Positions 11,301-26,885 of a DNA stretch of 46,239 nucleotides are shown piece after piece. The position numbers were made by a program, and so were the translations under genes. Source of the stretch: a virus. The notes below the pieces were generated by a model, which saw only the letters and a list, made by a program, of their open reading frames with translations, made no database searches and was not told the DNA's origin. The stretch spans positions 1-46,239 of the IMG/VR virus record IMGVR_UViG_3300050821_003692; one strand, written 5' to 3'. Position 1 is the stretch's first letter. Every line of letters starts with the position of its first letter.

Positions 11301-11918
11301 TAGCGGCGTCGTGTCGCCGTTGCCGATGGCGGTTGATGCGGCGCTGACCTCGCTGCTGTCCGGGAGGCGGCCGAGCGGCTGGTCGACAATGCTGCCGTCT
11401 GGGCGGCGCTCTATGCGAGCGATCATCTCGCCGGCCGATAGCGCAGCGCCCGCCGTCTGTCCGTTCAGCGGCGTCTTGCCCATGCGGCCGAATGCGACCA
11501 GCGTACCGAGGCCGATGGCCTGGTCGAGCCCTTCCGGCGTATTCAGGTCGATCTTGCCCTTCATGACCTCGCCGGGGATTTCACCCTGCTCGAGCATCCC
11601 CTTGACGAAATTCATCGGGTATTGCTTGACCGTATCCCAAAGCTTGCTGCGGCCTTCCGGCGTCGCGATCATCGCGGCAAATTCCGGCACCGTCTGGATC
11701 AGGCCGCCTTCACGCTTCTTCGCCGCGGCACCAGCATCGAAGCGATCGAGCATCGCCTGCGGCACATCGCCTGAGACTTTCGGCGCTCCGAAATAGTCGT
11801 CGACCTCCGCATCATCGAAGCCGGCCGCCTTCAACTGCGTGCGCTTGTCGGTTGCCCATGCCGCGATTTCGGTGTCATTGAAACCAGCATCGCGCAAGTG
11901 CGAGGTCACATCGGGCAT
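8328..11918 (-). CDS. giant internal virion/ejection protein, LPD38-type, 1196 aa
   Basis: The length and place (after tail tubular and two smaller internal genes) are those of the T7 gp16-type ejection protein. The N-terminus has two repeated UBA-like motifs (HLRDAGFNDTEIAAW; LKAAGFDDAEVDDYFG), then a Pro-rich linker (GYGPPPSPPEAAAPAGG), a long helical body, and the region near residues 640-760 (GAVTTPDFALRHTIRDFLYA) that I recognise as the large polyvalent protein domain LPD38. Such proteins are carried in the head and pass into the cell with the DNA. No transglycosylase motif is evident. ATG 11918 overlaps the upstream TAA. Confidence 0.8.
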   Translation of the reverse strand: MPDVTSHLRDAGFNDTEIAAWATDKRTQLKAAGFDDAEVDDYFGAPKVSGDVPQAMLDRFDAGAAAKKREGGLIQTVPEFAAMIATPEGRSKLWDTVKQYPMNFVKGMLEQGEIPGEVMKGKIDLNTPEGLDQAIGLGTLVAFGRMGKTPLNGQTAGAALSAGEMIARIERRPDGSIVDQPLGRLPDSSEVSAASTAIGNGDTTPLMEKKLVDLYEQKGIHPAEVAHDAQTDPTVSQSILSSDPQDMPAGYGPPPSPPEAAAPAGGKPPEYSDAEKQILSKISIGETSPTEKLSFNKLYTNFVDKLFPLSKAVKEAGAELPSEDNPYQLARLLSGHVGKADHFINNGTFDFETYENNGPSLKQVLRPVAADLNGFRAYATAARALELEGRGIKSGFAEPTAGAPPLVAEGLDAARTVVSEGAAKYEKPFRALVDYQNRVSQYLRDSGVLSDAGYKAMIEANKMYVPFSRVMGLDADAPAVSGSTLQARNPIKAIKGSARDIIDPVESVVRNTYHFIEMAEKNQVGGKLVDMLLRAGEELPEARAAAIAETLATSTDEKAIADALNEVGLKQVNDLAISLYSARTPDRAGQISVLRDGKRTTYQVDHDLARAMKGLDAQSMGLLEKVLSYPASVLRAGAVTTPDFALRHTIRDFLYAATTFKGGQFSPADMARGFSGLIMKDEDYWNWLKGGGGNVSFVGMDRQYLQADIRKLTGETGLAGRAWNVLTDPEASMWDKTSAVGKLPFHAVSKFVLDPLRAATQFAESASHLGAFKKQMRIQEAGGDDLRSQIIRSAWASRDTAVDAARMGANMRAYNMITAFANIKIQDTDRVVRAIKDSPLTTLTKIGGAITVPSVLLWAANHDDPRYNEIPQWQKDMFWLVMTPDHVFRIPKPWAMGMVFGSLPERMLDEFVAQKPDSFKEYFKSLWAASGPDFVPTAASPIIDQFANRSTFTNRTLIPSEQEKFLPEYQYTPYTTELTKSLGKIIGAFPGISELKMEQSGWGGTARALTSPILMENYIRGWSGTLGVYALDAADAALRKAGVIPDPPQPASTLADIPVIKAFVVRYPTATTESIQNFYDEYARNKTYFDTFMAKARDGDVAAMAHIQQMGGPMMFAQLDSIKAVLSEHSQLIRDLYKNPDTPPDEKRQLIDQLYYSMIQVGQHGNEAVRALRRQSDAIEAAARGIGPDLTADSPR

Positions 11919-13609: not shown

Positions 13610-13616
13610 CGCGCGC

Positions 13617-14099
13617 CTATGGAAGAATGTTCAACGGCTGGCCGCCCTGCAATGCCGGCAGACCGGAAAATCCCTTGAGGATGCCAGCGCCCGCGCCGAG
13701 GCCGCCAGAGAGCAATGCTGTGCTTGATGCAGTGCGCAGATAGGCGGCGTTTGCCTCATCCTCCTGTTGCTGTGCCAAGAGGCTATCGACGGTGATGTTT
13801 TTCTGCTCGGTCCCGACTTGGCTCGTGTAATCACGCACCGCTGCGCCGGTCGGAGATGTCGGACTGTCATGGCCGGCGGCGCGGATGGCATCGATATTGC
13901 CGAGCGTGACGCCTAGATTGCGCGTCATTTGCGCGTTGGTCTGGGTGGCTTGCAGTCCCTTGTATTCGGCCTCGCGTTGGAGTTCTTCGGATTTGAATAT
14001 ATCGCCCGCAGACGTGCCGGCGCCGCTCACAAGCGAGCCAATCGCGCCCAGCCCCAATGAGGCTATCGATAGGCTGGATGCTCCTGATGCCGCGCCCAT
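13617..14099 (-). CDS. internal virion protein, gp14-like, 160 aa
   Basis: Starts immediately before the tail tubular B stop (TAA at 14100-14102 then ATG). It has a Gly/Ala/Ser-rich hydrophobic N-terminus (SSLSIASLGLGAIGSLVSGAG) and C-terminus (LLSGGLGAGAGILKGFSG) with a Gln/Glu-rich helix between (LQREAEYKGLQATQTNAQ). This pattern, small size and Gly-rich ends, is usual for the gp14-type ejection protein that enters the outer membrane. Place between tail tubular B and gp15-like gene agrees. Confidence 0.7.
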   Translation of the reverse strand: MGAASGASSLSIASLGLGAIGSLVSGAGTSAGDIFKSEELQREAEYKGLQATQTNAQMTRNLGVTLGNIDAIRAAGHDSPTSPTGAAVRDYTSQVGTEQKNITVDSLLAQQQEDEANAAYLRTASSTALLSGGLGAGAGILKGFSGLPALQGGQPLNILP

Positions 14100-16460
14100 T
14101 TAGATGCTGGCCTCCAAACCGATCTCGTGCAATTCGAGCGGGCCCGGCGTGTCCTTAATGACCGCAACCCTCGGATCATATGCCCGCCCGCGCGGACGCC
14201 AGCGCTGGGCTTCCTCGCGCAAGGGCGGCGGCTGCGTCGGGTCGTCGTCCTGGTTCCAGGTCTCGACGCGGCGTGTGTTCATGATCGTGCCGAGCGCAGG
14301 CGATGTCCGGGTGAGCGGCCCAGCAAACAGCCGTGCCATGACGAAGCCGGACGAGCTCGACACATAGACCGCCATGCGCGACACGCGGCGTTTGAACATG
14401 CGCTGATGCACGCTCTGCCCTGGCGGCGCATCGGGCACGAACGGCTCGAGCGTCGCGGTCCAGGGCTGCCCGGCCATAAGCTGCGCCGATGCCAGATTTT
14501 CCCCGGCGTTGCCTTGCGGGATGATGTTGCCTTGGCTGTCGATCTGATAGGTGCCCATCATGCGCGTCGACTGATCCATGAGCGTGACCGAGCCGCCGGG
14601 GAGCCACCACATCGGCCCCTTCCCGGCCGGCGGCGCAAACGCGGCCGGTGCGGCGTTCACCAGCATGCCGCCGTCGACATACTGCGTATTGTCGAGCGCC
14701 TCGACGATGCTGACCGCCGGCCTGCCGTTCGGCGCATAGCTCGTGGTGAAAATCAAATCCGGGCCTTGCGCCGAGATCCATTCGACCGTGCCGGCGCCGG
14801 TCCACGGCAGCCATCCGATTTTCGGCTTGCCTTCCGGGCCGACATCCAACAAGCCCTGCCTGATCCCATACTTGCCGGTGACGATGTTGCCGTTCGCCAA
14901 GAGAATGTAGGCGTACAGTTCCTCGAACTGGCTGGTCGCACTCGGCACGGCAATGGCGATGGCGGGCGATGCCGTGAACAGATGCGAATGAAATTCCGAG
15001 ACGTTATCGATCACATAGGGCCGATAGTACGCGCCCGGTGCCTGCACGGCCCCGACCTGCACGCCGCCGGCCTTCATGTAAAGTATCGATTGTTCGGCCG
15101 GCTGCGGCTTGACGTTCGCGGCGCAACCCTGCTGGCTAATCAGATTGAAAGCAACGCTGCCCGGCTCTAGCGGATCGGCAACGGTGATAGGAATGTAATA
15201 GACCGCGTTATCGCAGAATACGAACTCCGATGACTCCATGCCGGGCAGCACGAACAGAACTTGCGACTTGCCGGGCGCAAGCTCGAAGATCGAATTGTCA
15301 GGCAGCGGCGCAGGGTAAAGATCAGTCGGCAACCCGATCGCCGACCACGCGATGCCGGATAGCACTGACGGAAAATTGCAAAAGCCTAGCCTGCCCTGAT
15401 CGACAAACACTGATGAGGGATAGCCTTGGTAAGCATTCATGACCTCCTGGTCCCAAACAGCAATTGCATTCGGGGTAAACGCCACGGCGCCCATTGACGA
15501 AACCGCAACGCTGCCGCCGGGGCCGACCAGCACATCCGTGGTCACAAAGGCAAAGACTTGAATTGGACCGCCGCCGCGCCCCGTAGTTGTAGTTGTCGTC
15601 TCATTAAGCAATTGAATATTTACTGTAGTTGCACTCAAGAGAACGACGATTCCGGTAGCGCCAGATACGGTGCCCTCAATCTCATCGCCAACATTCAAGA
15701 CGTTGCGCGGATCGGTGCTGGTAGTTGCGATCTGCATGCCCGGCAGCGGCTCCTCGACAGTCCCCGATCCATGCTCACTATCAGTCACCCCGGTAATCAG
15801 AATTTGCCGGTTAACATAACGAATCCGCGTTCCCACCATGCCAGCAACCAGCACAGGAGCGGAAAACTGAAAGGTGATGGCGCCCGTACTTGCTGACGGC
15901 TGCATGACGATATTCGGCGGGGCGATCCGATAGAACGGCGTGCGCTTCTGGCCGCCGGCCGTGACCGTTTCGGCATAGGTGGAAAGCGTCCATGTCGAGG
16001 TCTGAGATACGCCGTCCCAGCTAAGGATTTGCGGAACATTGTTGGGCGCCCCGTCGGCATAGGCGATGTAAATCGACGGCGGCACGCCGATACCGAGCGC
16101 CCATACGACATTCTTGACCGTCGCCGTGGTCCATGGAATTGCCGTCGCACCGTCGCCCTTTACTGTCGTGCTGAAAACCCGCGTCCCGACCGCGTTGTAA
16201 ACCCGCAGATAACCATTGCCGAATGCCAGATAGAAGATGTTTCCCGGCGACATCAGCACCTTTTCGACGCGGCCGGTCTCGGGGAACAGCGCCGTGCGCC
16301 CCGGCCGGTTCTTCACCGCGCCGCTATTGAGCACGCGATAATTGGCGAGTTGTCGCGCGCCAATTTTCATCAGCGGATTTTCGTCAGAGCGCTTCATCGA
16401 CACGTCGAGCTCGCCCGCCGAGAAGTCGCGCTGTGCCCCGGTAATCTTCGGTATGGCCAT
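14100..16460 (-). CDS. tail tubular protein B-like (nozzle), 786 aa
   Basis: The N-terminus (FSAGELDVSMKRSDENP, IGARQLANYRVLNSGAVKNR) is the signature of the phage stabilisation / tail nozzle family: SxGELsp, a run of column residues, then the RPG loop (NRPGRTALFPE). The long remainder is beta-rich and propeller-like, as in gp12 of T7 and gp10 of P22-type nozzles. It forms the distal tube with tail tubular A, which is encoded just upstream. Length is close to T7 gp12 (about 794). Confidence 0.9.
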   Translation of the reverse strand: MAIPKITGAQRDFSAGELDVSMKRSDENPLMKIGARQLANYRVLNSGAVKNRPGRTALFPETGRVEKVLMSPGNIFYLAFGNGYLRVYNAVGTRVFSTTVKGDGATAIPWTTATVKNVVWALGIGVPPSIYIAYADGAPNNVPQILSWDGVSQTSTWTLSTYAETVTAGGQKRTPFYRIAPPNIVMQPSASTGAITFQFSAPVLVAGMVGTRIRYVNRQILITGVTDSEHGSGTVEEPLPGMQIATTSTDPRNVLNVGDEIEGTVSGATGIVVLLSATTVNIQLLNETTTTTTGRGGGPIQVFAFVTTDVLVGPGGSVAVSSMGAVAFTPNAIAVWDQEVMNAYQGYPSSVFVDQGRLGFCNFPSVLSGIAWSAIGLPTDLYPAPLPDNSIFELAPGKSQVLFVLPGMESSEFVFCDNAVYYIPITVADPLEPGSVAFNLISQQGCAANVKPQPAEQSILYMKAGGVQVGAVQAPGAYYRPYVIDNVSEFHSHLFTASPAIAIAVPSATSQFEELYAYILLANGNIVTGKYGIRQGLLDVGPEGKPKIGWLPWTGAGTVEWISAQGPDLIFTTSYAPNGRPAVSIVEALDNTQYVDGGMLVNAAPAAFAPPAGKGPMWWLPGGSVTLMDQSTRMMGTYQIDSQGNIIPQGNAGENLASAQLMAGQPWTATLEPFVPDAPPGQSVHQRMFKRRVSRMAVYVSSSSGFVMARLFAGPLTRTSPALGTIMNTRRVETWNQDDDPTQPPPLREEAQRWRPRGRAYDPRVAVIKDTPGPLELHEIGLEASI

Positions 16461-16463
16461 GGC

Positions 16464-17204
16464 CTAGCCCGGCAGGCCGCCGCCGCCCCAGCCGCCAATT
16501 CCGATCGGTGGCCACGGCCGGCGAATCCGGCGCGATGCGGATATGCGCGAGTTGAAAAACTGCCGCTTGGGCTTTTGCTGGTCGTAGCGGGTGCGCGCCA
16601 TCTGCAACATGCGCTCGCCCGCGAGCCACATCTTGTCGCCCTCGGCGGGATCCTCGTGCAGCCCGCGATAGATGCCGGACATGACGAAGCTTTGCAGGGC
16701 AAGGATTAGCGTCGGCGTGCCGTTTGTCGAATCGGTGAGCGGGCCGGAATTGGAGATGTATTTGAGTGTGATGGTGGCTGGCGTTATGCCGCTATTGGGG
16801 GGCGGCGGGGGCGGCCCGCCCTGCGCGTTGGTGACGATCACAGGCCCGGTCGGGGTACCCATGATGTCGTAAAGCGTCAATTGATTGGTCGTCGAGCTAG
16901 TCGGGTCGTCAACGTCCTGGTTGATCTTGAGCCAGACGATATGCACGCAATCCGGCGGGATCGGATAGGCGGTGTCCCATTGGGTGTCCTGCGGTGCCGT
17001 GGGGCTCGGTTGCAGCGTCACGACCAGGGCGGCATATCCCCAGGAGTGGCTTTCCATAGCGAAGCTGAGACCGGCCTGATAGGATGGATCGCAGGTGTTC
17101 CACTCATCCGATCCGTCGTCGGCGACGTTGACGAGATTATCCCCGGTGGCTGCCAGGGCACGGTTGATCACCGCCAGCTCGTCGAGCGGAAAAGGGTATG
17201 CCAT
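16464..17204 (-). CDS. tail tubular protein A-like (adaptor), 246 aa
   Basis: Begins LDELAVINRALAATGDNLV-NVADDGSDEW then a Tyr/Trp-rich helix, the known start of the gp11-type adaptor (ALxxIGE...DdGsdea...a...y). The middle has an unusual Pro/Gly run (GGPPPPPPNSG), probably an exposed loop, and the C-terminus ends in a Gly/Trp tail (GIGGWGGGGLPG). It binds the portal and carries the nozzle. A GTGCGTTGCC element stands 29 bases before the ATG; no good ribosome site is seen. Confidence 0.88.
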   Translation of the reverse strand: MAYPFPLDELAVINRALAATGDNLVNVADDGSDEWNTCDPSYQAGLSFAMESHSWGYAALVVTLQPSPTAPQDTQWDTAYPIPPDCVHIVWLKINQDVDDPTSSTTNQLTLYDIMGTPTGPVIVTNAQGGPPPPPPNSGITPATITLKYISNSGPLTDSTNGTPTLILALQSFVMSGIYRGLHEDPAEGDKMWLAGERMLQMARTRYDQQKPKRQFFNSRISASRRIRRPWPPIGIGGWGGGGLPG

Positions 17205-17266: not shown

Positions 17267-18709
17267 TTATGAGTTGCACGCGCTTCCGCTCCCCGCGTCG
17301 ATATTGCCAGTGATGGTGATGTTGGTCCCGCCACCACCGTTAAACGCCAGGAACGCCCCGCTATTATCGAGATAGTTGCCGCTGATCGTGTAATTCTCGA
17401 ACGTGCCGCCTTCCTGCTGGCCGGGATAGACCACGGCGCCTGCCGTGTAGGAGACGGCGTTGCCGTCATTGCAGGTGCCTTGTGGCCCCGGTGCCAAGGC
17501 GACGTTGTGGTCGGTAGTGCTGCCATTGATCACCACATCGTCGGCCTGCTGGACCAGCAAGGCGGTGAGGTTCTGCTGCACTCCGTTCGGACAATGGGTT
17601 TGGTTGCTCGAACAATAATAGGGCTGATAATAGAGATTGAATTCTTGCGTCTGCGTCACGCTCGGCGTTCCGGTGCCGTTGCCGTTGAAGGTGTATTCCG
17701 GCTCGCCGTGGCCGCACCCGCCGCCGCCGCTCACATCGCCAGTCGTACAGGCGCCCATGCTGCCGAAGACGTTGTATTTCGAGATGTAGGTCAGGCCGCT
17801 CGGACCGAAGCCGGCGAGCACGATGCCCTGCGCATCCTGATTGTAGATGTAGTTGTATTTGAACGTCACCGCTGCGGGCGATGAGCCGCCATAAATGCAG
17901 CGGCTTACTCCGAATCCGCTTCCCGTTCCGCCAGCGGGAGCAAGCCCGTTGCAATCGTTGTACTCAAAGTCGATCGTGTCGCCGAGACCAAAATAGATCG
18001 CATAGAGATTGTTTGCCGCGCCGTTGACGGCGAAGCTGTTATTCTTGACGGTGATCGTGCCGGTAAGGTTGTCCGAGATTTTAAGGATTACGCCGCCATG
18101 CAGGGTATAATCAAACCCGCTGACGTTGCAGGGCCCGGAATTGACCGTGACCTGCTGGCTCGCGTAAGTGGCACATGCGGGAAGATTGGAGCCATTGGTC
18201 GGGTCGAGCAGCGAAAGAGCGCGGCTATAGCCGATTGGGTAATCGACGCCCGGCACGTTCCAAGTGGTCGAAGCATTATGCGGCGTGGCCTGATAGACCA
18301 CGGCGGTCATGGAGCCGTTGGAACCCGCGCCCGCTCCTCCTGGAACGCTGATCGTTGGCGTTGACGTGCAGCCAGAGCCGGCGTTGCTAATCGTATAGCT
18401 GACGCCGGCCGGGCCGCCGAGATTGCCGCCAGACACCGTGACCTGTCCGGTCGCGTTGACCGAGCATCCGCCGCCGGACGAGGTCCAGGTATAGGTGCCG
18501 TTGGTGTAGCCGGAGCCGGTGATGATGGCGACAGTGCTGATAGTTTTCGGCGTCAGTAGATTCGGAAACGGCGTGATGCCGCTTGCTTGCGCGCCGCCGC
18601 AGCCATCGGAAAGCGCGGAGCCGAATGGGCAGTTGCTGCTATTAGGATTGCCGTGGGTCCAGCCACCGAGCAGGACTGCGAGCAGGATTACAGCCGCCAG
18701 CCTTTTCAC
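17267..18709 (-). CDS. secreted beta-helix fibre-like protein, 480 aa, GTG start
   Basis: The start is the GTG at 18709, overlapping the upstream TGA by GTGA; it gives a signal peptide (MKRLAAVILLAVLLGGWTHG). Longer starts add a basic, non-natural segment. The mature protein has a Thr/Gly-rich N-terminal part with cysteines (GGGCSVNATGQVTVSGG) and, from about residue 170, repeated strand-turn units rich in N and G (ITVKNNSFAVNGAANN; FENYTISGNYLDNSG; TNITITGNIDAGSG) that suggest a right-handed parallel beta-helix, as in tailspikes and pectate lyases. Catalysis is not evident. Probable fibre or surface protein. Confidence 0.75.
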   Translation of the reverse strand: MKRLAAVILLAVLLGGWTHGNPNSSNCPFGSALSDGCGGAQASGITPFPNLLTPKTISTVAIITGSGYTNGTYTWTSSGGGCSVNATGQVTVSGGNLGGPAGVSYTISNAGSGCTSTPTISVPGGAGAGSNGSMTAVVYQATPHNASTTWNVPGVDYPIGYSRALSLLDPTNGSNLPACATYASQQVTVNSGPCNVSGFDYTLHGGVILKISDNLTGTITVKNNSFAVNGAANNLYAIYFGLGDTIDFEYNDCNGLAPAGGTGSGFGVSRCIYGGSSPAAVTFKYNYIYNQDAQGIVLAGFGPSGLTYISKYNVFGSMGACTTGDVSGGGGCGHGEPEYTFNGNGTGTPSVTQTQEFNLYYQPYYCSSNQTHCPNGVQQNLTALLVQQADDVVINGSTTDHNVALAPGPQGTCNDGNAVSYTAGAVVYPGQQEGGTFENYTISGNYLDNSGAFLAFNGGGGTNITITGNIDAGSGSACNS

Positions 18710-19578
18710 GGCATTACGCTTGCGACTTGCGCGGCAGTCACAAGTTGTCCCTGTTCGGCCGTGGATAGTCCGCAGCCCACGGCACATGGGCCTACTTTAG
18801 TGGTCATCCCAAAAGCGCCCGATCCTTGGATTTCAACGGCATAGCTATTCGCTGTTACCGCTGTTGCTCCGATAGTCCCGGCATTGGTTGGGCCGATGAT
18901 GTTCCACCAATACTTTGTCTTGGTGCCGTCACAGCCGAGTGTCGTGCATTGCGACTGCGAGCGGGTCTGCGCGAGAGTCAATGTGGCAAATAGCAGATAG
19001 GTGTTGGCGGTCGGCAGCACGTTGACGGGGACGACAACCGATACGGCATTCTGTGCGTTGGCGTCATGCGCCGCGATGGTGATTTGATCCCCAACTGCAC
19101 CAGTGAATGCGAGCGTCGCCAATGAAGGATTGACGACCGCCACAGTACCGACAATCGTGAGCGTCTTGGTGCCCGAGCCGGTGATAGTCGCAGAGCCGGT
19201 AGCGGTGAGCGTGCCCGCCCCGACCGTCAGCGTGACGGTATAGGAAAGGGTCGGCGCCGCTCCGCTTTCGGCAATGCTGATCCCGGCGATCGTCTTCGCG
19301 GTTGATTGCGCGGCTGTCGTGATTGCGGGCGCGGTGATGACCGGGATTGCGGCTTGCGCTGCGGTGATGCTAAAAAGGAGAAGGACAGGGAGGCTCAGGC
19401 CATGAAAGCCGAATTTGAACTTTTGCGGAATTACGAAGGCGAAGTCATTGGCTTGTTTATCTCGGAAAAGGACTTTCACCTTCTCTCTCAAGAATGGCAA
19501 ACGGCCATAAAGGCAAGCAAGAAGGCCGCAAGTGACCAAGTTGATGACTTTCGCCGACATGGTATTCCACTTCAACAT
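18706..19578 (-). CDS. Ig/cadherin-like repeat protein, putative fibre, start uncertain
   Basis: The C-terminal 210 residues are convincing: ISIAESGAAPTLSYTVTLTV, GTLTATGSATITGSGTKTLT, LATLAFTGAVGDQITI form the pattern of bacterial Ig/cadherin-type repeats, followed by a Cys-containing end. Before this is a signal-peptide-like core (LSLPVLLLFSITAAQA). The start is unclear: no ATG, GTG or TTG directly precedes that core. The ATGs at 19578 (overlapping the upstream stop) and 19560 give a 60-residue leader that is antisense to a plausible plus-strand gene (19402-19608). Either an insertion displaced the original 5' end or a rare CTG at 19398 is used. Confidence 0.6.
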   Translation of the reverse strand: MLKWNTMSAKVINLVTCGLLACLYGRLPFLREKVKVLFRDKQANDFAFVIPQKFKFGFHGLSLPVLLLFSITAAQAAIPVITAPAITTAAQSTAKTIAGISIAESGAAPTLSYTVTLTVGAGTLTATGSATITGSGTKTLTIVGTVAVVNPSLATLAFTGAVGDQITIAAHDANAQNAVSVVVPVNVLPTANTYLLFATLTLAQTRSQSQCTTLGCDGTKTKYWWNIIGPTNAGTIGATAVTANSYAVEIQGSGAFGMTTKVGPCAVGCGLSTAEQGQLVTAAQVASVMP

Positions 19579-19608
19579 GTGGCACCGAAGTTTCCGGCGC
19601 CCCAATAA
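19402..19608 (+). CDS. small charged protein antisense to fibre gene, 68 aa
   Basis: On the plus strand an AGGGAGG site sits eight bases before ATG 19402. The product (MKAEFELLRNYEGEVIGLFI, then SEKDFHLLSQEWQTAIKASK) has the balanced charged composition of a real soluble protein, unlike the strand opposite it. It lies wholly inside the 5' part of the minus-strand gene at 18706-19578 and over the end of the gene at 19572-20516. A moron expressed from the prophage is one reading. No family is recognised. Confidence 0.55.
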   Translation: MKAEFELLRNYEGEVIGLFISEKDFHLLSQEWQTAIKASKKAASDQVDDFRRHGIPLQHVAPKFPAPQ

Positions 19609-20516
19609 GCTTGTTGGTTCTCGCATACATTCGTTCGTTGCGTCGAGGTAAAGCTAGATGCCCAAATTCCACCGTCATAGAAACTCCCAACCATAGAAGC
19701 AGCGCCCGCGTTGGATGACGCCATGAGAGTAATGAAGGTTCCCGTTACGGCGCTGCCTGATGTTCCGCTATTTTCTGTACCGTTAACATTGCAGACGGAC
19801 GATGTATTGTTAACCGTCCAATTCACCGCATTCAGCACGTTATCAGGTACGGTTGGCGTTAGCCCTGTCGCACCAGCGTAACAATAATACTTGTTGGCGC
19901 TCGTAAAGTGCGAGAGGAATTGGTTGCCGTTATTAGTGGTAAAAACATAAGTCTGATTTGTTGCGGTAAATTTTGCGACCACCGAAATTGTATCTGGCTG
20001 AGTAATGCTGGTCATAGCTGACGAAGAAAGCCAGCCATGCGCAGACCCCGTTCCAGTCATACAAGGCAGTGAACCCACGCAACTCAACGTCAACGCTGGC
20101 TGATCCGCCGCAGTGGCCTGCGTAGCATTGATGCCATTGCCGGTCTGATCGTAAGCCTCAGTGACGGCACAACTGCTGCTGCTCTCAGCACAGAACACCG
20201 CGACCGTATCGCCGCTGGAGCTTCCAGAGCAGTTGGCGACATTGCCGAAGCCGCCATTGGTCGCAACAATGACATCACACGTTTCGCTCGTGGCGATATT
20301 GCGGATGTTGATAAGTTTCTGCGTAGCCGCCGCCGCGATGGCCGCAGTGTAGGCACGCAGCCCATACCAAGCCGTCGCGCCTGACACGACATCGCCGGGG
20401 CCGGTGTAGCTGGCGCCACCAGCGGTGACGCTCTTATTGTAGTTGCTGTCGCGGGACTGCCAGCCGCAGAGCAGGACAATGAGCGCCAGAACGACGGCGA
20501 CGCGAAGGGACTTCAC
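19572..20516 (-). CDS. secreted arabinofuranosidase-B-catalytic-domain-like fibre protein, 314 aa
   Basis: Signal peptide MKSLRVAVVLALIVLLCGW, then GATAWYGLRAYTAAIAAAAT, INIRN, VAVFC, VTEAYDQTGNGINATQATAADQPALTL: the order YGLR-AY, IxxRR-like strand, YDQSGNG-NATQ is the hallmark of the alpha-L-arabinofuranosidase B catalytic (GH54-like) fold often found on phage fibre proteins. The rest is LamG-like and beta-rich. Whether it is enzymatic or only sugar-binding is unknown. Its signal peptide shares the LLxGW ending with that of 17267-18709. It is coupled to its neighbours. Confidence 0.75.
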   Translation of the reverse strand: MKSLRVAVVLALIVLLCGWQSRDSNYNKSVTAGGASYTGPGDVVSGATAWYGLRAYTAAIAAAATQKLINIRNIATSETCDVIVATNGGFGNVANCSGSSSGDTVAVFCAESSSSCAVTEAYDQTGNGINATQATAADQPALTLSCVGSLPCMTGTGSAHGWLSSSAMTSITQPDTISVVAKFTATNQTYVFTTNNGNQFLSHFTSANKYYCYAGATGLTPTVPDNVLNAVNWTVNNTSSVCNVNGTENSGTSGSAVTGTFITLMASSNAGAASMVGSFYDGGIWASSFTSTQRTNVCENQQAYWGAGNFGATC

Positions 20517-21346
20517 GGCCCAAGCCCCGGTATGCCGGCCGGCGTCCAGCCGACATCGGTGATGGTCCCGGCCGTCACCGTCGGCGTGCCGCCCGCGCTT
20601 CCCTGATTGCCACTGGTCCAGCTCGCGGCATTGCCGGTAAACAACAAAGTCGGCGTACCGAACGTCGCGGCAGCCACGGTCGGATTGACCGGATTTTTGT
20701 TGGCGTCGATGAAATTCCGTCGATTAGCGGTGACACTCAAATCGGTGGTGGCACCAAGCCAGCATTGCAGATCGGCTAGACTGAGATTGGCGTTGACCAA
20801 ACCGATCGTTATCGTAGCCCCGTTCCAGAACGTGAAATTCTGAGTAGGCGAGTTGTCAACGCCATTCGCGTTTGCCGACACGTCGTTGATGTATTGCTGC
20901 AAGACTTTCGAGCCTTGCGCATGACCCACATCCATGTAGACCAGGACGTTGTACCAATAGCCGACCTGCCAAAAACTCGTGCTCGTATCGACGGTGACGG
21001 ACGCGCTGACCGCCGCCCATTCGCTTATGCCCTGAATATCGGTGTCGCCACCGACGATTTGTAAATTGGTGAACTTGGTTCCTGTATTCTGGACATTCAG
21101 GAATCTCGCGCCAGGACCGATCGCGCTTATATCGGGCATGAGCGCCCAATAGCTGCACAGCATCGTCGTCGGCGTGCCGGAGACGGTCAGCGGCGTGACC
21201 GACAGCGTAGTATCGAAAAAGCCTACCCCGTTCGGCTCGTAACCGCCCTGCTGGCCGTTCCAGAATGAACGCGCCGCGCCGACGATTGCAAGGTCAAATA
21301 GCAGCAGCGCGATAATGACAGCGCAGAGACGGCAATTCGACTTCAT
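20513..21346 (-). CDS. secreted LamG-like protein, putative fibre, 277 aa
   Basis: ATG 21346 overlaps the upstream stop (ATGA) and begins a Cys-containing signal peptide (CRLCAVIIALLLFDLAIVG). The mature region (RSFWNGQQGGYEPNG; DISAIGPGARFLNVQNTG; WNVLVYMDVG-like strand; LADLQCWLGATTDLSV) has the beta-sandwich look of LamG/concanavalin-like domains, including the WYNVLVY strand and the closing residue pattern. This fold often binds sugars on fibres. The end overlaps the next gene's start by four bases. Confidence 0.65.
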   Translation of the reverse strand: MKSNCRLCAVIIALLLFDLAIVGAARSFWNGQQGGYEPNGVGFFDTTLSVTPLTVSGTPTTMLCSYWALMPDISAIGPGARFLNVQNTGTKFTNLQIVGGDTDIQGISEWAAVSASVTVDTSTSFWQVGYWYNVLVYMDVGHAQGSKVLQQYINDVSANANGVDNSPTQNFTFWNGATITIGLVNANLSLADLQCWLGATTDLSVTANRRNFIDANKNPVNPTVAAATFGTPTLLFTGNAASWTSGNQGSAGGTPTVTAGTITDVGWTPAGIPGLGP

Positions 21347-22443
21347 TTCTGATAACCCCCGGCCGAGACGCTGACGACGCCTCCTGAGCCGGGGGCGGCC
21401 GATACCACGGCAATCGTCGTGTTCACCGCCGAGGCCGGCACACAGGGGTTGAAGATTTCCTCGACAACGCCGAGACCGGAGGCAAGCGGCGCAGTCCATT
21501 GCGTGAAGTTGAGCGTTCCGGTGATCGTCCCCGTCACTGTCGCATTGCCGGTAGCGGCCGCCGTCGCGTTGGCGCGAATGGAGAACCAGCAAATATAAGT
21601 TGTCACGCTGGCCGATGCCGCGAGCGTCGCCGTAGTGGCCGCCGTGGTCCCTGTCGCGCTGATCGTGATCGGCGTCGCGCCCGTTGGGTACTGCGAATTG
21701 ATCGTGCCGATGCCGTTGGTGCCGGCCGGGATCGGGCCGGTTGCCGCGCCATAGATGCCCTTGAGAATGGAAACGACCGAACCGGAGCCACTGGTATAGG
21801 CTGTGTCAGCCTTGGTGCCTTCGGTGACATCCCATCCGTCGACCGCGGCGCCAGAAGCAATCGAGCCGGCGGCATAAGCCCCGCTCGCGACCCCGCCAGA
21901 GGCAATCGTGACCGCGCCACCGCCGCCAGCAGATCCGGCTCCGCCCACTCCTGTCGGTAGGCCGGACCCGCCGATCATATTCACCGTCGTCGTCGACGTG
22001 CTAGTGATGCAAGTCAGTTGCGTGGAAGCCCCGACCGTAAAGGCAAACCATCCGCCGCTCGGGGCAATGTATTGCGCCCCTGTCGTGGCCGACGCACCGA
22101 GCGCGCAATAGGCTCCATTCGCCCCGACATTGGTCGCCACGACCACCGCGCCCGCCGGCAGCGTTCCTGTAACCCCACTCGTCGTGACCGAGATCGGCGT
22201 GCCCTGCGCACCAGGCGCAAATCCGGTAACGCTCGCCGTGACCGTCGCATTGACGCACAATTTACCAGTCGTATCGACAAAGAGCAGGCCGGCGGCACCA
22301 GCTATCGGCGTCGTCAGCGATGACGGAACGGTACCGCAGGTCGTTATGTAAAATGGCGCCTGCGCCTGGGCAGGCGACAGCATAAAGAAAAGCGCCGCGA
22401 CAAGAGCCGCGACGCAAGTTGGCACCGATCGGGAGGCGATCAT
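21343..22443 (-). CDS. secreted Thr/Ala/Gly-rich protein, putative fibre or decoration, 366 aa
   Basis: ATG 22443 gives a signal peptide ending MLSPAQAQA. The mature part is low-charge, rich in Thr, Ala and Gly (GVTGTLPAGAVVVATN; GSAGGGGAVTIASGG) with the segment GWDVTEGTKADTAYTSGSGS-VVSILKGIYG, which I have seen as a recurring block in rhizobial phage structural proteins. It resembles fibre shafts or head-decoration proteins. The place within the run of signal-peptide genes suggests the same structure. Exact role unknown. Confidence 0.65.
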   Translation of the reverse strand: MIASRSVPTCVAALVAALFFMLSPAQAQAPFYITTCGTVPSSLTTPIAGAAGLLFVDTTGKLCVNATVTASVTGFAPGAQGTPISVTTSGVTGTLPAGAVVVATNVGANGAYCALGASATTGAQYIAPSGGWFAFTVGASTQLTCITSTSTTTVNMIGGSGLPTGVGGAGSAGGGGAVTIASGGVASGAYAAGSIASGAAVDGWDVTEGTKADTAYTSGSGSVVSILKGIYGAATGPIPAGTNGIGTINSQYPTGATPITISATGTTAATTATLAASASVTTYICWFSIRANATAAATGNATVTGTITGTLNFTQWTAPLASGLGVVEEIFNPCVPASAVNTTIAVVSAAPGSGGVVSVSAGGYQK

Positions 22444-22456
22444 GCCGGGAGAAATC

Positions 22457-23083
22457 CTAGTAATAGGTGTACAGGATCGTGATGTTGATCGATCCCGAAT
22501 TGCAGGCCGTGTGACAGGCGACCAGGATTTGATCGGCGGTCGGCACACCGGACGGCGCATTGATACGGGCCAGCGTAAGCGCATCGGTCAACGATACCGT
22601 GGCATTGGCGCCGAGCGCCCGCGCGGAAACGTAGGTTGTCGCCGACGTGGCGTCGCCGATGTCCACGCCGCCGGTGATTGCGTTGCCTGCCGTCTCCTCG
22701 AGAACGATCGCGAGGATATAACCGTAAGCCGGAAGGGTGATCGTCGAGGTCGACGCAGTGGTCGACGCGGTAATTGCCTGCTGCTGTAGGACGAAAGTGC
22801 TCGGGCCGTAGTAGAAGCCCTGCGACAGGAAGTAACCGATGTCGGCGGCGGCAATGAGCGCGCAGCCATCAGCATTGAGAATGTAGGACGGCTGCGGGGA
22901 GGCGGTCGAGGAAGTATTGACGACCTTACCGGGACCGGCTGCGGCACCAGACGGAATCGGACGACATAGGAAGGCGTGTGTCGTCTGCGTGCTCGCGGCG
23001 GCCTGCGCCTGCTGCTGCGGCCAGGAAAGCAGCGCGAAGCTGGCAAGCAGCAACGCGATTAGGGCCAGACGAAGCTTCTTCAT
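22457..23083 (-). CDS. secreted hypothetical protein, putative fibre or decoration, 208 aa
   Basis: Clear signal peptide (MKKLRLALIALLLASFALLS ending QAQA). The mature part includes GCALIAAADIGYFLSQGFYYG and a beta-rich Thr/Ser core (ITASTTASTSTITLPAYGYI), with four cysteines of which two (HTACNSG) are near the end. The ATG overlaps the upstream stop by four bases. It is the first of six consecutive signal-peptide genes in transcription order, directly after the head genes. No known family is recognised. Confidence 0.65.
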   Translation of the reverse strand: MKKLRLALIALLLASFALLSWPQQQAQAAASTQTTHAFLCRPIPSGAAAGPGKVVNTSSTASPQPSYILNADGCALIAAADIGYFLSQGFYYGPSTFVLQQQAITASTTASTSTITLPAYGYILAIVLEETAGNAITGGVDIGDATSATTYVSARALGANATVSLTDALTLARINAPSGVPTADQILVACHTACNSGSINITILYTYY

Positions 23084-23637
23084 GGTCGCATCTCCTGCTC
23101 ACCAAAGACGGGATCGCGGCGCTTGGCTTCGGCAAGGTCAGCCTCGCCTTCCGCCATGCGGCGCAGGTTTTCGGCGTGGCCGTGGCCGGGCTTCATGGTC
23201 GCCGGCAGGCCGCCATTCTTGAGCTTTTCGTGGCCGCGGGTGCGACTGGAAACGGCATAGCGCGGTGCCGACTGGCGTTTCTCCTTGACCGCGCGCGCAT
23301 CATTTGCCAGCGCATCTTGCGCATCAGCGGACCAAAAACGTATTTCGTAGGGGCCACCGTATCGCTTGGCGAAATCGTCATATTCAATCTTGGCCTGCCG
23401 ATAAGCCTTGAGCGCGATTTCGTAGTCGACGATCGCCTCGCGAAAATCGATCATGGCGAGATCGTATTTCGGATCATTTTCCTTGCCGCTCGGGGCTTCC
23501 GGCCGCTTTGGCAATTCGGGCTTCGGCGGCCCGAGATCCCAGAGCCAGACATGGGAAAGGCCCTGGTTGGCCAGCGCGGCGAAGTCGGCGCCACCGTTGG
23601 CCAGCTTGGTATGCTGCGAGATCGCGAGTTCGCTCAT
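23080..23637 (-). CDS. hypothetical virion-block protein, 185 aa
   Basis: A charged, mostly helical protein with a Pro/Lys-rich hinge (PPKPELPKRPEAPSGK), a Tyr-rich helix (DFREAIVDYEIALKAYRQ) and a His-rich region (GHEKLKNGG... KPGHGHAENLRR). It has no signal peptide or span. It lies between the capsid genes and the secreted fibre run, and both its ends are ATGA-coupled. Paired with the next protein, which has a related style, it may be a tail- or head-associated adaptor; this is inference. Confidence 0.6.
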   Translation of the reverse strand: MSELAISQHTKLANGGADFAALANQGLSHVWLWDLGPPKPELPKRPEAPSGKENDPKYDLAMIDFREAIVDYEIALKAYRQAKIEYDDFAKRYGGPYEIRFWSADAQDALANDARAVKEKRQSAPRYAVSSRTRGHEKLKNGGLPATMKPGHGHAENLRRMAEGEADLAEAKRRDPVFGEQEMRP

Positions 23638-24197
23638 TGGGCCCCACCGCCAAAGGGCGCAAATGGCTTGCCGGTAGCCGCCGGTGCCGCGCCCTTCTTG
23701 TTCTCAAGTTTCTCGCGCTCCTCGACGGCATGCTTGGCGCGGCGCTTGGCCATCACCGTCGCAACGGCGGCCTTGCGGTCGAGCGCGAGTTGCACTCTGG
23801 CGGCATGCGTTTCGGCATGCTTCTTCGCTGTCTCACGGCGCTTGCGGATTTCCTCGACCTCGGCCTTGACCTCGGCGTCATCGCCCAAGGGCTCGATGGC
23901 GTAGCGCTGCGGGTCGGCATAGATCGCGTGACCTGCATCGCCGGCAGCCATGGTCAAAGGCACCGGGCCGGGACCATTAACGCGATGCCATTCCGCATGA
24001 TCGGCGTCGTACTGCGCCTTGGCGGCCTTGTAGCCGTCGCTCTCGGGCGGCAACGCGCTTGCGGGCATCTCGTCGTGCGGACCATGATCCCAAATCACGA
24101 CATTGCCGCTGGCATCGATGTCGGTGCCGACGATCGTGTCGTGCTTGACTTCCTTGGCTTCGTCTTTGGTTTCGACTGCTGGGTCGGCCATGATCAT
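23634..24197 (-). CDS. charged helical hypothetical protein, 187 aa
   Basis: ATG 24197 (MIMADP) overlaps the upstream stop; a second ATG at 24191 is also possible. The N-terminus is acidic and beta-like (DTIVGTDIDASGNVVIWDHG), the middle has AAKAQYDADHAEWHRVNGPG, and the C-terminal third is a highly charged helix (EVEEIRKRRETAKKHAET; RKAAVATVMAKRRAKHAVEE), a probable coiled coil. It shares a YKxAKxxYDxxxxxW-type helix with the protein at 23080-23637. Function unknown; probably a virion component. Confidence 0.6.
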   Translation of the reverse strand: MIMADPAVETKDEAKEVKHDTIVGTDIDASGNVVIWDHGPHDEMPASALPPESDGYKAAKAQYDADHAEWHRVNGPGPVPLTMAAGDAGHAIYADPQRYAIEPLGDDAEVKAEVEEIRKRRETAKKHAETHAARVQLALDRKAAVATVMAKRRAKHAVEEREKLENKKGAAPAATGKPFAPFGGGAQ

Positions 24198-24823
24198 TCC
24201 CTCGGGAGGACAGCGACGAACGCGCGATAGGTGATCGAGCCGAACGTGCCGCCGTTGTAGAGCGCGAGAAATTGGTATTTCACGTTGTTCTGCTCGTTGG
24301 TGAACAGGAGCTCGTATCGCGAGCCGCCGATCGCGGCCGGGGCCGGCGTGTTGATGCCGTTGACGAAATCCATCGCGGACGCTTCGCCGAACTGCATCGC
24401 GCCGAGAATTTGCACGTTGCCGGCACCGAAGTTCGGATCGTTGGAGCCAACCAGGATGAGCCGATAGAGGTCGGAGCCGGCCACGGTGGCGGCGGTGACA
24501 TCGATCACGCACGCCGCATCGATGCGCGGCTGTTGCGGCGTGATCGTCGTCGAGTTTGCGATCGAGGGCAGCGTAATCGTGACGCCCTGGTTGCCGCCGA
24601 GATCGACAACACCCTGCGCGCCGCCGGACTGCGCGTAACCGGCCGCGGTGTAAGCCGCGGCGCCGTCGCTCAGAACGTTGTTGGCATCGAATGAGTAGGT
24701 TCGATCGCCCTGCTCCATTTGCAGAGAGCGGCCGGATTTTTGCCCCATCTGCGGAGCCGGCTTGATCAGCCGGCGCGCCGGGAAAGCCATCCCGCGATGG
24801 TAGAGAGGCAGGCGGTTGTTCAT
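24194..24823 (-). CDS. capsid cement protein, Bbp16-like, 209 aa
   Basis: Lies just after the major capsid gene. The core (RIDAACVIDVTAATVAGSDL, YRLILVGSNDPNFGAGNVQI, then GSRYELLFTNEQNNVKYQFL) fits the Bbp16 family that cements capsids of BPP-1-like podoviruses: a jellyroll-like domain with the YxLxLxGS strand followed by the aromatic YELxF strand. The N-terminus is basic (YHRGMAFPARRLIKPAPQMG). The longer upstream frame is noise; ATG 24823 fits the gap after the capsid stop. Confidence 0.75.
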   Translation of the reverse strand: MNNRLPLYHRGMAFPARRLIKPAPQMGQKSGRSLQMEQGDRTYSFDANNVLSDGAAAYTAAGYAQSGGAQGVVDLGGNQGVTITLPSIANSTTITPQQPRIDAACVIDVTAATVAGSDLYRLILVGSNDPNFGAGNVQILGAMQFGEASAMDFVNGINTPAPAAIGGSRYELLFTNEQNNVKYQFLALYNGGTFGSITYRAFVAVLPRE

Positions 24824-24843: not shown

Positions 24844-25797
24844 CTATGCGACGATTGGAGCGTTGGTCCAGGAAGTCAGGCGGCCCAAGCAGTATTTGTG
24901 CTCGTCGACCATGCCGACATCCCAACCGATATGCGTGCGGTAGGTTTTGCGGTCTTGCAGCAGGCCGACATCTTCCGGCGTCAGGTTGCGGACGTAGATG
25001 CCGCGCAACATGCCTTCGCCGAGGGTGAGGCCGTAGAGCGACGCGGTGACGGCCGAGCCGCCGCCATTGCCGACCTCGTTGAATTGCAACACCGGCACCT
25101 GATCGTCCTTCGGGTAGCCCCACAGGAGCCGCAGACCGGCGTAGCTGATCTTCGGCATGCCGACCTCATCCCAGGTCTGCATCACGAAGCCGCTCAGGGT
25201 CGTGGTGCGCGCCGCCTGAATCCACAGCGGCAGCGAAATGAACGGCACGAAGATGTAGGTGGTGCCGGACTTGCGCGAGATGTTGTTGAGGAACTGATCG
25301 AGATTGGCGAGCGACAGCGCGGCGCCGCCAGATGATGTCGAGTTGTTGTAAAGGCGCCCGAATTTCTGCGCCCGCACTTGCAGGCCGTTAAACACCCGCG
25401 GATTGGTCGACTGATCGCCCTTGACGAAGGTGTCGACCCAGAGGCGCGCAAAGGCGGTGATGCCCATGCGTTCCTCGTAATTGCGCCGTTCCGGTCCATG
25501 ACGGTCCTGGATGGCGCGGTCAACATCGATGTCGTGATCGATGATGTAGGTCGCCTCGTCGAACGGCGTGATCGAGCCATGGCCGGACGATGATGCCTCA
25601 TTGATGGCTCGGAACACCGGCACCGGCAGCACCGACTCGCGATAGCCGACATATTTGGAGCCGCGCAGACCCTCGAACGGCATGACCTCGAAGATGTCAC
25701 TGTATTGCGTGAACATCTCGATGATGGTGCGGCGGATGTCCTCGTTGGAAAAACCCTTCGCGTATTCGGTCAGGGTGATCAGATTCGAGACAGCCAT
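24844..25797 (-). CDS. major capsid protein (HK97-like), 317 aa
   Basis: Order scaffold, small protein, this gene, cement protein identifies the capsid. It begins LITLTEYAKGFSNEDIRRTI and has PFEGLRGSKYVGYRESVLPV, then PFDEATYIIDHDIDVDRAI, typical of the E-loop and early P-domain of podovirus capsids in the Gp13-like family; the later YIFVPFISLPLWIQAA and GYPKDDQVPVLQF fit the P and A domains. Self-assembles into the head shell on the scaffold. There is no maturation protease gene nearby, and the start has no cleavable delta domain. Confidence 0.88.
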   Translation of the reverse strand: MAVSNLITLTEYAKGFSNEDIRRTIIEMFTQYSDIFEVMPFEGLRGSKYVGYRESVLPVPVFRAINEASSSGHGSITPFDEATYIIDHDIDVDRAIQDRHGPERRNYEERMGITAFARLWVDTFVKGDQSTNPRVFNGLQVRAQKFGRLYNNSTSSGGAALSLANLDQFLNNISRKSGTTYIFVPFISLPLWIQAARTTTLSGFVMQTWDEVGMPKISYAGLRLLWGYPKDDQVPVLQFNEVGNGGGSAVTASLYGLTLGEGMLRGIYVRNLTPEDVGLLQDRKTYRTHIGWDVGMVDEHKYCLGRLTSWTNAPIVA

Positions 25798-26028: not shown

Positions 26029-26885
26029 CTACCCGCACCGTTGCTCTGGAACTGCTCTTGCGGGAATTTACGCGCGTAATCGAGCCGTTCAGCCGACGAC
26101 ATCTTGGCAAAGACCTCGTTGCTCACCTTGCCCGGAGCATCCGGCGGCTCGCGGCCATTGGCGCGGAACGAAGCGCCGCCCTGCGAACTGATCTTGCCGA
26201 CCAGCTTTTCGGCGATTGCCACGTCGGCGGCAGTGAACATGCGGCTCATAAGCTGCCGGCCTTCGGCCTCGCTGAGGTAGGAACTGAAAAACGTGGTCAG
26301 GGCGTCGATACGCGCCGGGCCGGTCGTTCCGAGTTTCGCAATCTCGGCATTGCGTGCGGCAGTGATCTGCTGCTGCGAAGCGACCTGCGCGCCGGCATAC
26401 AGACCGAGCAATTTTGAGAAATCTTCCTGCTTAAGGCCCATCTCGTGCGCCATTGTGCGCGCCTGAGAAAGGAGCGGATCGTCATTGTTGAACTTGAATT
26501 CGACGCCCTGCGGCGGCTTGAAGTCGCCGGGCAATTCGACCTTATAGGCATCGGCGTTCTGCGGCAGCGCATTGCGGCGCACTGCCTCGGCGGCATCGCG
26601 CGCTACAATCTCGTTGAAATGCGCGGCCAGCGCCTTGTCGTCGCTGATCTTGCCGTCCTTCGCATTCCAGAATTTCTCGGGGACGTATTCGGGACGCGCA
26701 GGCGCTTGCTGCTGCTGACCGCCCTGATTATTTTGCTGGCTCTGGTTCGTCTGCCCGTTCGCCTGGCCAGCCTGCGTCTGCTGGTTGGCTTGCGAGCCAT
26801 TCCCTTGCTGAGACGCGTCGCCCGACGTTTGTTGGCTCTCGTCTTGCGAAGACGACTGGCCGCCGGCTTGTGTCTCGTCCGCCAC
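26025..26885 (-). CDS. scaffolding protein, 286 aa, GTG start
   Basis: The N-terminal 65 residues are almost entirely Q/S/G/N (SQDESQQTSGDASQQGNG), a disordered leader, followed by PEYVPEKFWNAKDGKISDDK, the recognisable motif of phage scaffolds (P-E-x-[VL]-P-E-K-F-W), and then helices and a C-terminal capsid-binding region. It directs procapsid assembly and is lost from the mature head. The start is GTG 26885; it overlaps the upstream 122-aa gene by 158 bases in another frame. Confidence 0.85.
   Translation of the reverse strand: MADETQAGGQSSSQDESQQTSGDASQQGNGSQANQQTQAGQANGQTNQSQQNNQGGQQQQAPARPEYVPEKFWNAKDGKISDDKALAAHFNEIVARDAAEAVRRNALPQNADAYKVELPGDFKPPQGVEFKFNNDDPLLSQARTMAHEMGLKQEDFSKLLGLYAGAQVASQQQITAARNAEIAKLGTTGPARIDALTTFFSSYLSEAEGRQLMSRMFTAADVAIAEKLVGKISSQGGASFRANGREPPDAPGKVSNEVFAKMSSAERLDYARKFPQEQFQSNGAGR

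Follow-up and report, generated by a model that had tools for sequence, protein, structure and literature searches.

The textbook assembly of tailed phages is wholly cytoplasmic, and a run of genes with apparent secretion leaders between the capsid and tail genes of a soil phage therefore raises the question of what these leaders are for. The original prediction held that six consecutive genes there (A to F), and also a T7-type tail fibre gene, encode Sec signal peptides, and offered three explanations: the proteins are secreted and added to the particle during lysis, they modify the envelope of infected cells, or the signal-like segment has another use. We address these using the window (the whole stretch of DNA analysed, 46,239 nucleotides) and its relatives. 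The coordinates of A to F held on rechecking, and the relevant features are as follows, with a slash marking the predicted cleavage site.

6220-7746, minus strand: tail fibre in the T7 gp17 position, 508 aa; predicted leader of 20 aa (7687-7746), QAFA/QSPPAVPALPD; C-x-C in the adaptor domain; C-terminal part Gly-rich, with matches to tail PHROGs
8328-14099, minus strand: internal-virion-like genes, assigned by position between tail tube and fibre; no leaders
14100-16460 and 16464-17204, minus strand: tail-tube-like genes (phrog_376 and phrog_394, respectively); no leaders
17267-18709, minus strand: A, 480 aa, GTG start; predicted leader of 16-20 aa (from 18709) ending LLGG/WTHG; 14 Cys in the mature part
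18706-19578, minus strand: B; signal core at 19351-19395, start codon unclear
19572-20516, minus strand: C, 314 aa, GTG start; predicted leader of ~18 aa (20463-20516) ending LLCG/W; arabinofuranosidase-like family
20513-21346, minus strand: D, 277 aa; probable leader of ~25 aa (21272-21346), its core containing one Asp
21343-22443, minus strand: E, 366 aa; predicted leader of 27 aa (22363-22443) ending AQA/QAPF; C-terminal jelly-roll domain, widespread phage family
22457-23083, minus strand: F, 208 aa; predicted leader of 28 aa (23000-23083) ending AQA/AAST; N-terminal domain with two invariant Cys, C-terminal half a predicted capsid-cement-like jelly roll
23080-23637 and 23634-24197, minus strand: two capsid-module genes; no leaders
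24194-24823, minus strand: capsid-adjacent protein; no leader
24844-25797, minus strand: major capsid protein (PF20911, phrog_212); no leader

Leaders in the window and among its relatives

Leaders were scored with a home-made Sec rule that combines n-region charge, an uncharged 10-residue core and a -3/-1 site, and that favours AxA sites by design; on E. coli K-12 proteins, with class labels assigned by us, it accepts 34 of 36 that are exported, 1 of 102 that are cytoplasmic and 13 of 37 that are in the membrane. Of the six, A, C, E and F pass the rule, which also bears out the leader predicted for the fibre, from the start at 7746. D (MKSNCRLCAVIIALLLFDLAIVGAA/RS) is rejected for a single Asp in the core of an otherwise good leader, and B, whose signal core (SLPVLLLFSITAAQA/A, 19351-19395) has no ATG, GTG or TTG just before it, passes from an alternative start only. 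The claim for all six genes thus stands for four by the rule at the starts first called, for five by eye, and for six if the start of B is forgiven. In A, C, D and F, the start shares four bases (GTGA or ATGA) with the upstream stop codon, which supports these start calls. The shared LLxGW ending noted in two leaders is confirmed for A and C, and one relative (L011) has it as VLLCGWDHG; it probably marks where the leader ends, W being the first residue of the mature protein.

To see how widely leaders occur, the rule was applied to 75 loci, from which duplicates by capsid sequence had been dropped and in which starts were called automatically, some of them wrongly. Leaders are present in 44 of 50 F proteins and 64 of 155 proteins of the island between F and the tail genes, and in only 1 of 332 core virion genes and none of 129 that lie between capsid and F, used as controls. 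Of the six F proteins without an accepted leader, three (L003, L005 and L009) have leaders that the rule rejects for charged or polar residues ahead of the cleavage site, and three are truly leaderless (L086 to L088). Signal-peptide prediction on relatives likewise favours a leader on the fibre adaptors, in 35 of 36 metagenomic loci (L190 and L213 being duplicates) plus L217 in a bacterial genome. Conserved -3/-1 sites stand immediately ahead of conserved mature starts, and a few island proteins of relatives (in L004, L011 and L081) have Tat-like leaders.

These patterns leave very little probability to an artefact, whether of miscalled starts or of hydrophobic stretches arising by chance in high-GC DNA. 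The unclear start of B and the several wrong automated start calls are what such an artefact would give, but the same rule yields almost nothing in the control genes, the four-base overlaps support the starts of A, C, D and F, and the leaders recur in dozens of contigs; for F and the fibre we regard this explanation as refuted by control genes, start overlaps and recurrence.

We also considered hydrophobic anchors or membrane-active segments serving assembly or DNA entry. The acceptance of about a third of E. coli membrane proteins by the rule is compatible with this, but the conserved cleavage sites right before conserved mature starts, the Tat-like leaders and the cysteine patterns described below speak against it, and we consider it improbable. 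No 19-residue stretch with mean hydropathy above 1.4 occurs in mature A, C, D, E, F or fibre, and the value of 2.05 for B is its own signal core, the rule having cut B elsewhere; a membrane anchor reading was rejected in that the mature parts have no second hydrophobic segment. A lipoprotein (signal peptidase II) reading was also set aside, a lax lipobox pattern occurring in 4 leader-bearing proteins among 156 (the window fibre and 155 from the island), and in none that the window encodes.

Cysteine content of the mature proteins

Mature leader-bearing proteins have even numbers of cysteines in all 44 F proteins and in all seven of the window. In the island, the leader-bearing proteins comprise 54 with even, 8 with odd and 2 with zero cysteines, compared to 31, 26 and 34 among leaderless ones (Fisher p 9.5e-5); counted by family, the figures are 26 even and 5 odd versus 16 even and 15 odd (p 0.013). 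The two cysteines of F are invariant in 41 of 41 members, and both are absent from the leaderless F-like proteins of L086 to L088. In the fibres, parity is even in 26 and odd in 4, and the C-x-C motif is present in 30 of 35 with a leader and 0 of 4 without, in a table compiled by hand with the C-x-C part pattern-checked.

The E family was counted in 70 of 80 loci (leaving out L044, L009, L104, L049, L149, L155, L156, L163, L166 and L178), and its 53 leader-bearing members are even in 51 cases and odd in 2. Of 17 members leaderless by the rule, seven are clearly so and have zero cysteines, although these are partly close relatives and so represent few independent events; L129 is leaderless with one cysteine, five pass a relaxed rule (L107, L121, L124, L157 and L159), L130 seems by eye to have a leader, contig ends truncate L140 and L167, and L171 is unclear. 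L157 has a leader and zero cysteines.

Even, conserved cysteines that go with the leader are expected of disulphide-bonded extracytoplasmic proteins, and their presence here suggests that these are such proteins. Together, the cysteine parity, the loss of cysteines in leaderless homologues and the Tat-like leaders of relatives favour true export, and disfavour another use of the segment. Export of the leader-bearing proteins is well supported, as judged from sequence.

Identity of F, the fibre and their neighbours

By sequence profile and modelled fold, F is capsid-cement-like, and capsid binding is predicted. Its profile gave one match in the PDB, the Pam1 cement protein (E 1.4e-5), and the best fold matches of its model (residues 60-180) include the cement proteins of Pam1, GP4, KHP30 and KHP40; the gene is part of the capsid module and is the fourth after the capsid gene. 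The product of 24194-24823, for which a PDB search gave no credible match, may from its position and resemblance be a conventional cement protein. Two of 41 F members match phrog_20969 (Rz-like spanins; best E 2.7e-6), with no match for the window F, and a search of phage records with three F members gave none, nor did a DNA search of phage records with the island.

The folds originally named for the six proteins (beta-helix, Ig-like, arabinofuranosidase-like and LamG-like) were not borne out: Pfam gave nothing for any of them, and F is cement-like rather than Ig-like. The arabinofuranosidase-like link of C comes through a family member, L007:13284-15290 (PF09206, 42.6 bits, cut-off 25); C itself has no match among phage records. 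The C-terminal part of B is homologous to L036:16550-16900, which carries a clear leader, and A and D have no relatives among the collected loci. The fold search with E, most of whose N-terminal two-thirds is poorly modelled, returned generic viral jelly rolls only, the best being the coat of satellite panicum mosaic virus (Z 9.3), with Pam1 cement at 7.0, and we therefore read no function from it. A search for the E family in 397 genomes, from the order to which the Microvirga genome belongs, found nothing, which shows little since none of them was known to be positive.

The fibre gene follows phrog_394, phrog_376 and the internal genes, the position of T7 gp17, and its L102 relative lies directly after bigS. 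An alignment of its adaptor with T7 gp17 is collinear over 97 columns, although not significant (hhalign probability 1.2, E 0.044); Pfam gave no match to the adaptor and its profile nothing credible in the PDB, and 6 of 10 fibres in a PHROG scan had no match at E 0.001. No other fibre candidate was found among the scanned window genes. Leader-bearing relatives in L006, L029 and L133 match tail fibre or spike PHROGs, and similar genes are found in the structural modules of phages with other head proteins.

One alternative is dual use, in which part of each protein is exported and the rest, through slow export or a downstream GTG or TTG start, remains cytoplasmic and enters virions as usual. A GTG or TTG codon lies beyond the cleavage site in 21 of 34 fibres, and the capsid and tail proteins with which the fibre has to combine lack leaders and are cytoplasmic; however, an ATG between cleavage site and adaptor occurs in 0 of 34, codons 21-40 of the window fibre include none of the three start codons, and even, conserved cysteines are unexpected in a protein working reduced in the cytoplasm. 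We consider dual use unlikely, and note that the GTG and TTG codons run against the reading that we prefer in that they leave room for a leaderless form.

Proposed joining of exported parts to the particle

Our preferred explanation, which we hold to be slightly better than an even bet, is that F, A to E and the fibre are exported, oxidised virion-type appendage proteins that join particles at lysis. They would be made as precursors with cleavable N-terminal signal peptides and, during late expression, would cross the inner membrane by Sec (or, in a few relatives, by means of Tat-like leaders); in the periplasm, the leader would be lost and disulphide bonds formed, presumably by host Dsb proteins. 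The capsid protein, portal and tail tube have no leaders, and capsids and tails would be assembled in the cytoplasm. Failure of the inner membrane at lysis would then mix the two pools, and the folded, oxidised fibres and decorations could bind finished particles from outside and so be present in virions. We infer addition during lysis, among the explanations first offered, on the grounds that leaders are carried both by the sole fibre candidate found, which occupies the T7 gp17 slot, and by a cement-like protein encoded close to the capsid gene. That such late joining is feasible is indicated by the binding of Dec of phage L to P22 capsids in vitro (PMC7602432) and the complementation of T4 parts in extracts (PMC9576892). 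Odd cysteine counts, 4 in fibres and 8 in the island, run against this reading.

The envelope-modifying explanation keeps some force. The proteins may be exported without entering virions, being periplasmic or released, where they could bind or mask receptors, exclude competing phages or alter the envelope as do lambda Lom and phage lipoproteins. The same export evidence applies; the island is hypervariable, at 73 to 8130 bases from F to tubA (37 loci with both); the window has two more leader-bearing genes outside the island (3697-4479 and 5872-6177); and the lambda Lom gene sits between tail genes (PMC12309495). O-antigen-ligase-like genes occur in the islands of three relatives (L014, L078 and L081), so that the slot can hold envelope-modifying cargo, an observation that also counts against joining at lysis. 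On the other hand, F has a capsid cement fold and profile, relatives match tail fibre and spike families, and the phage would be left with no receptor-binding protein, the leader-bearing fibre being the only candidate found. We regard a non-virion role as possible, and clearly less probable than joining at lysis.

We give even weight, neither more nor less, to the broader proposal of a second assembly compartment. In this proposal, Sec or Tat takes fibres and outer decorations of the capsid to the periplasm, where they fold and acquire disulphide bonds, and only lysis brings them together with heads and tails made in the cytoplasm; phages of at least three major head protein types (phrog_212, phrog_334 and phrog_10) would use it. 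No account of exported virion parts of tailed phages was found in the full-text literature, subscription journals lying mostly outside its scope, including passages of PMC6102473, PMC3556154, PMC12309495, PMC7602432 and PMC9576892; in the decoration-protein review (PMC7602432), 'signal peptide', 'disulfide' and 'periplasm' never occur. If fibres and cement-like decorations do pass through the periplasm, virion maturation continues beyond the cytoplasm, infectivity would hinge on Sec, Tat and disulphide formation in the host, and receptor-binding proteins, produced oxidised and tougher, could be suited to soil. A leader with even cysteines offers a simple sequence test by which such proteins could be recognised among uncharacterised phage genes, and the question is directly testable in a lysogen.

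Filamentous phage coat proteins are virion proteins with Sec leaders, and their virions are assembled at the membrane and then secreted; in contrast, the window phage and its relatives are tailed, having genes for head, terminase and tail. The fibre resembles those of the T7 gp17 type in gene order (tail tube, internal virion genes, fibre) and in its C-terminal matches to tail families, but T7 gp17 has no leader, unlike all but one of the 36 relatives. A homologous adaptor (42.7% identity over window fibre residues 34-150) is present in the fibre of Microcystis phage Mwe-JY08 (WWT39917), which starts at the adaptor and has neither leader nor C-x-C. The cement proteins of Pam1 (7eel_H), GP4 (8h89_J) and KHP30/KHP40 (7dn2, 7dou) share a jelly-roll fold with modelled F residues 60-180 (Z 8.8 to 10.0), together with profile homology for Pam1, and F differs in its cleavable-type leader, extra N-terminal domain and invariant cysteine pair. 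Lambda Lom and similar late-region exported phage proteins are alike in having a leader-bearing gene within the tail region (PMC12309495), although Lom is an outer-membrane barrel, whereas the model of F is a cement-like jelly roll and the fibre is a tail protein.

Leaders in the window

The original prediction placed Sec signal peptides (leaders) on six consecutive minus-strand genes, A to F (A, 17267-18709; B, 18706-19578; C, 19572-20516; D, 20513-21346; E, 21343-22443; F, 22457-23083), and on the tail fibre gene (6220-7746, minus strand). Leaders were called with a rule of our own (n-region charge, uncharged 10-residue core, -3/-1 site), which accepts 34/36 exported, 1/102 cytoplasmic, and 13/37 membrane proteins of Escherichia coli K-12, by labels that we assigned. 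A, C, E, and F pass, as does the fibre with its start taken at 7746; D is rejected owing to one Asp, and B has a signal core (19351-19395) with no ordinary start codon directly before it. The rule finds no leader on the window's capsid, portal, terminase, or tail-tube genes. The start codons of A, C, D, and F lie in four-base overlaps with the preceding stop, and a relative of B in locus L036 bears a clear leader. A plus-strand ORF, which has no relatives among the loci compared, may have cost B its normal start. Leaders are also present on two other well-coding minus-strand ORFs (5872-6177 and 3697-4479); the 3697-4479 product has no Pfam match and, judged by eye, we take it to resemble a rhizobial outer-membrane protein.

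Further ORFs of the window
19402-19608, plus strand: 68-aa ORF with a GGAGG-like sequence upstream, covering the 5' part of gene B
3697-4479, minus strand: 260-aa protein with a clear leader
5872-6177, minus strand: short leader-bearing ORF
39300-39551, plus strand: short leader-bearing ORF with a lipobox-like LAGC

Relatives and the variable island

The window, an IMG/VR virus record of 46,239 bases, encodes a major capsid protein of the 'GP7' type (Pfam PF20911; PHROG phrog_212), a terminase, an Erf-like annealing protein, and an integrase, and it has portal-like and tail-tube-like genes. Transcription runs on the minus strand, in the order terminase, portal, scaffold/protease-like gene, capsid, three small genes, F, E, D, C, B, A, two tail-tube-like genes, three internal-virion-like genes, a 168-aa gene, and the fibre. 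Relatives gathered through F searches and through capsid searches (80 viral and 4 genome loci for the capsid) share a fixed frame of portal, scaffold, capsid, small genes, F, a variable island, and tail tube, with F and tail tube 73 to 8130 bases apart in the 37 loci having both. Among relatives, the same rule accepts 44/50 F proteins and 64/155 island proteins, and 0/129 capsid-to-F and 1/332 core virion genes as controls. Start miscalls aside, most families are uniform, either all leader-bearing or all leaderless.

A few island leaders are Tat-like (L081:12006, TRRKFLAG; L004:7421; L011:13165, RRNLLRAS). That of L004:7421 scores 16.5 bits against the Pfam TAT model, under the 22.7-bit cut-off. 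A mature N terminus of the form (W/F)(T/S/D)HG, right behind the leader, is common to A (18709), L004:7421, L011:13165, L011:14013, and L081:12006, and occurs in both Sec-type and Tat-like proteins. The islands of L038, L040, L044, L045, and L070 hold long series of leaderless virion-type genes, with small CPHC zinc-finger-like proteins in L040, L044, and L045. In L034 (11799-14183) and L035 (3090-5609), F is absent and its place is taken by a leader-bearing protein of 794-839 aa with a fibre-like VPGLPD linker.

The main rival to a role in the virion is that the leader-bearing proteins are secreted factors with the envelope or competing phages as their target, and O-antigen-ligase-like (Wzy_C) genes between F and the tail genes in three islands show that the slot can hold such cargo. 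Two of the three score above the Pfam Wzy_C cut-off and one below; in two, a short TPR-like ORF (by eye) follows.

O-antigen-ligase-like island genes
L014, 13225-14388
L078, 4021-5100
L081, 8645-9820

A six-adaptor search for fibres found 36 viral loci, in 35 of which a leader is followed by QAPPPVPALPDxERRT or similar. Unlike the window fibre, the homologue in Microcystis phage Mwe-JY08 begins at the adaptor, without a leader, as do those in a Microvirga prophage and one more genome (L216, L218). In Mwe-JY08 (PP395640.1), a tRNA-Gly annotation (26651-26736) lies within the stretch coding for the tail-tube homologue, where no CDS is annotated. Another adaptor locus, L217, lies in an 8.4-Mb genome from the same taxonomic order as the Microvirga genome; other stretches of its contig have no further window-gene matches. 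The window phage likely has an alphaproteobacterial soil host, and the relatives of Mwe-JY08 suggest an alphaproteobacterial host for it too. L089 (SCSV01000188.1), a contig of this phage type filed under a Salinibacterium MAG, is probably wrongly binned; the other genome hits of the phage type are Rhizobiales.

Cysteine parity and spread over other phage types

Fully disulphide-bonded proteins tend toward an even number of cysteines, and parity thus provides a test of export independent of the leader. Mature F has an even count in 44/44 proteins, and its cysteine pair is invariant in 41/41 mature sequences; neither cysteine is present in the three-fold F-like proteins of L086-L088, which have no leader (by eye). 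Leader-bearing island proteins are even in 54 cases, odd in 8, and without cysteine in 2, compared with 31, 26, and 34 for leaderless island proteins and 19, 58, and 52 for capsid-to-F genes. With one count per family, there are 26 even and 5 odd with a leader, and 16 even and 15 odd without (Fisher p 0.013). In the window, mature counts are all even (A, 14; B, 4; C, 10; D, 2; E, 6; F, 4; fibre, 8), and the 15 leaderless virion-module genes counted comprise 3 even, 5 odd, and 7 without cysteine. Within the E family, 51 of 53 leader-bearing members are even and 2 odd, and the seven clearly leaderless members have zero cysteines; C-x-C occurs in the fibre adaptor in 30/35 proteins with a leader versus 0/4 without. 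Because leader and cysteines co-occur inside single families, and counts are mostly even, the leaders are unlikely to be a chance or non-export feature, and these sequence patterns support export and oxidation of the leader-bearing proteins.

An E-domain search led to loci with other backbones: in 61 of 70 examined, the flank was free of window core genes, and 46 of these carry a leader. The leader-bearing E gene of L128 lies ahead of a phrog_334 capsid gene and overlaps the end of the portal gene. L133 has four consecutive leader-bearing genes (mature cysteines 2, 4, 6, 6) downstream of its phrog_212 capsid gene, with a fifth close by (10 cysteines), and L114 has five consecutive ones (2, 2, 2, 4, 6) downstream of phrog_10-type head genes. 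These runs are lower bounds, since automated calling, which found few leaders in other loci, found none in L105 and L138, where E-family reading shows one each.

F, the fibre, and possible late joining

Against the secreted-factor explanation, F is related to cement proteins. The best PDB match (Foldseek) of a predicted model of mature F (pLDDT 84.9) is the cyanophage Pam1 cement protein (E 1.1e-5), also the one match of a 41-sequence F profile among all PDB sequences (E 1.4e-5). The GP4 and KHP30/KHP40 cement proteins are the next structural matches (Z 8.8 to 10.0, residues 60-180); a siphophage baseplate protein also matches (Z 10.3). The 'Rz-like spanin' label of phrog_20969, which matches 2/41 F proteins, may be based on the leader alone.

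It also counts against secreted factors that no other fibre candidate was found among the window genes scanned. The Gly-rich end of the fibre matches a tail PHROG (E 9e-8), and of 10 fibres scanned (nine with a leader, one without), the four of L192, L194, L204, and leaderless L207 have PHROG matches with E no higher than 0.001. Leader-bearing L006:12202 matches a tail fibre or spike family, and leader-bearing L133:10410 matches PHROGs annotated as EPS depolymerase and as tail fibre, the best at E 1.4e-12. The fibre occupies the position that gene 17, which follows gene 16, has in T7; sequence comparison with T7 gp17 gives no significant link.

If the leader-bearing proteins are exported, their leaders would probably be cleaved and the host Dsb system used. 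Because the fibre has a leader and heads and tail tubes do not, it would meet them only after lysis, unless some fibre remains cytoplasmic. ATG is absent between cleavage site and adaptor (0/34 fibres), but GTG or TTG is present in 21/34, and a small leaderless pool is therefore possible. Joining at a late stage is feasible in principle, given that decoration protein Dec attaches to P22 capsids in vitro (PMC7602432) and that T4 parts show complementation in extracts (PMC9576892).
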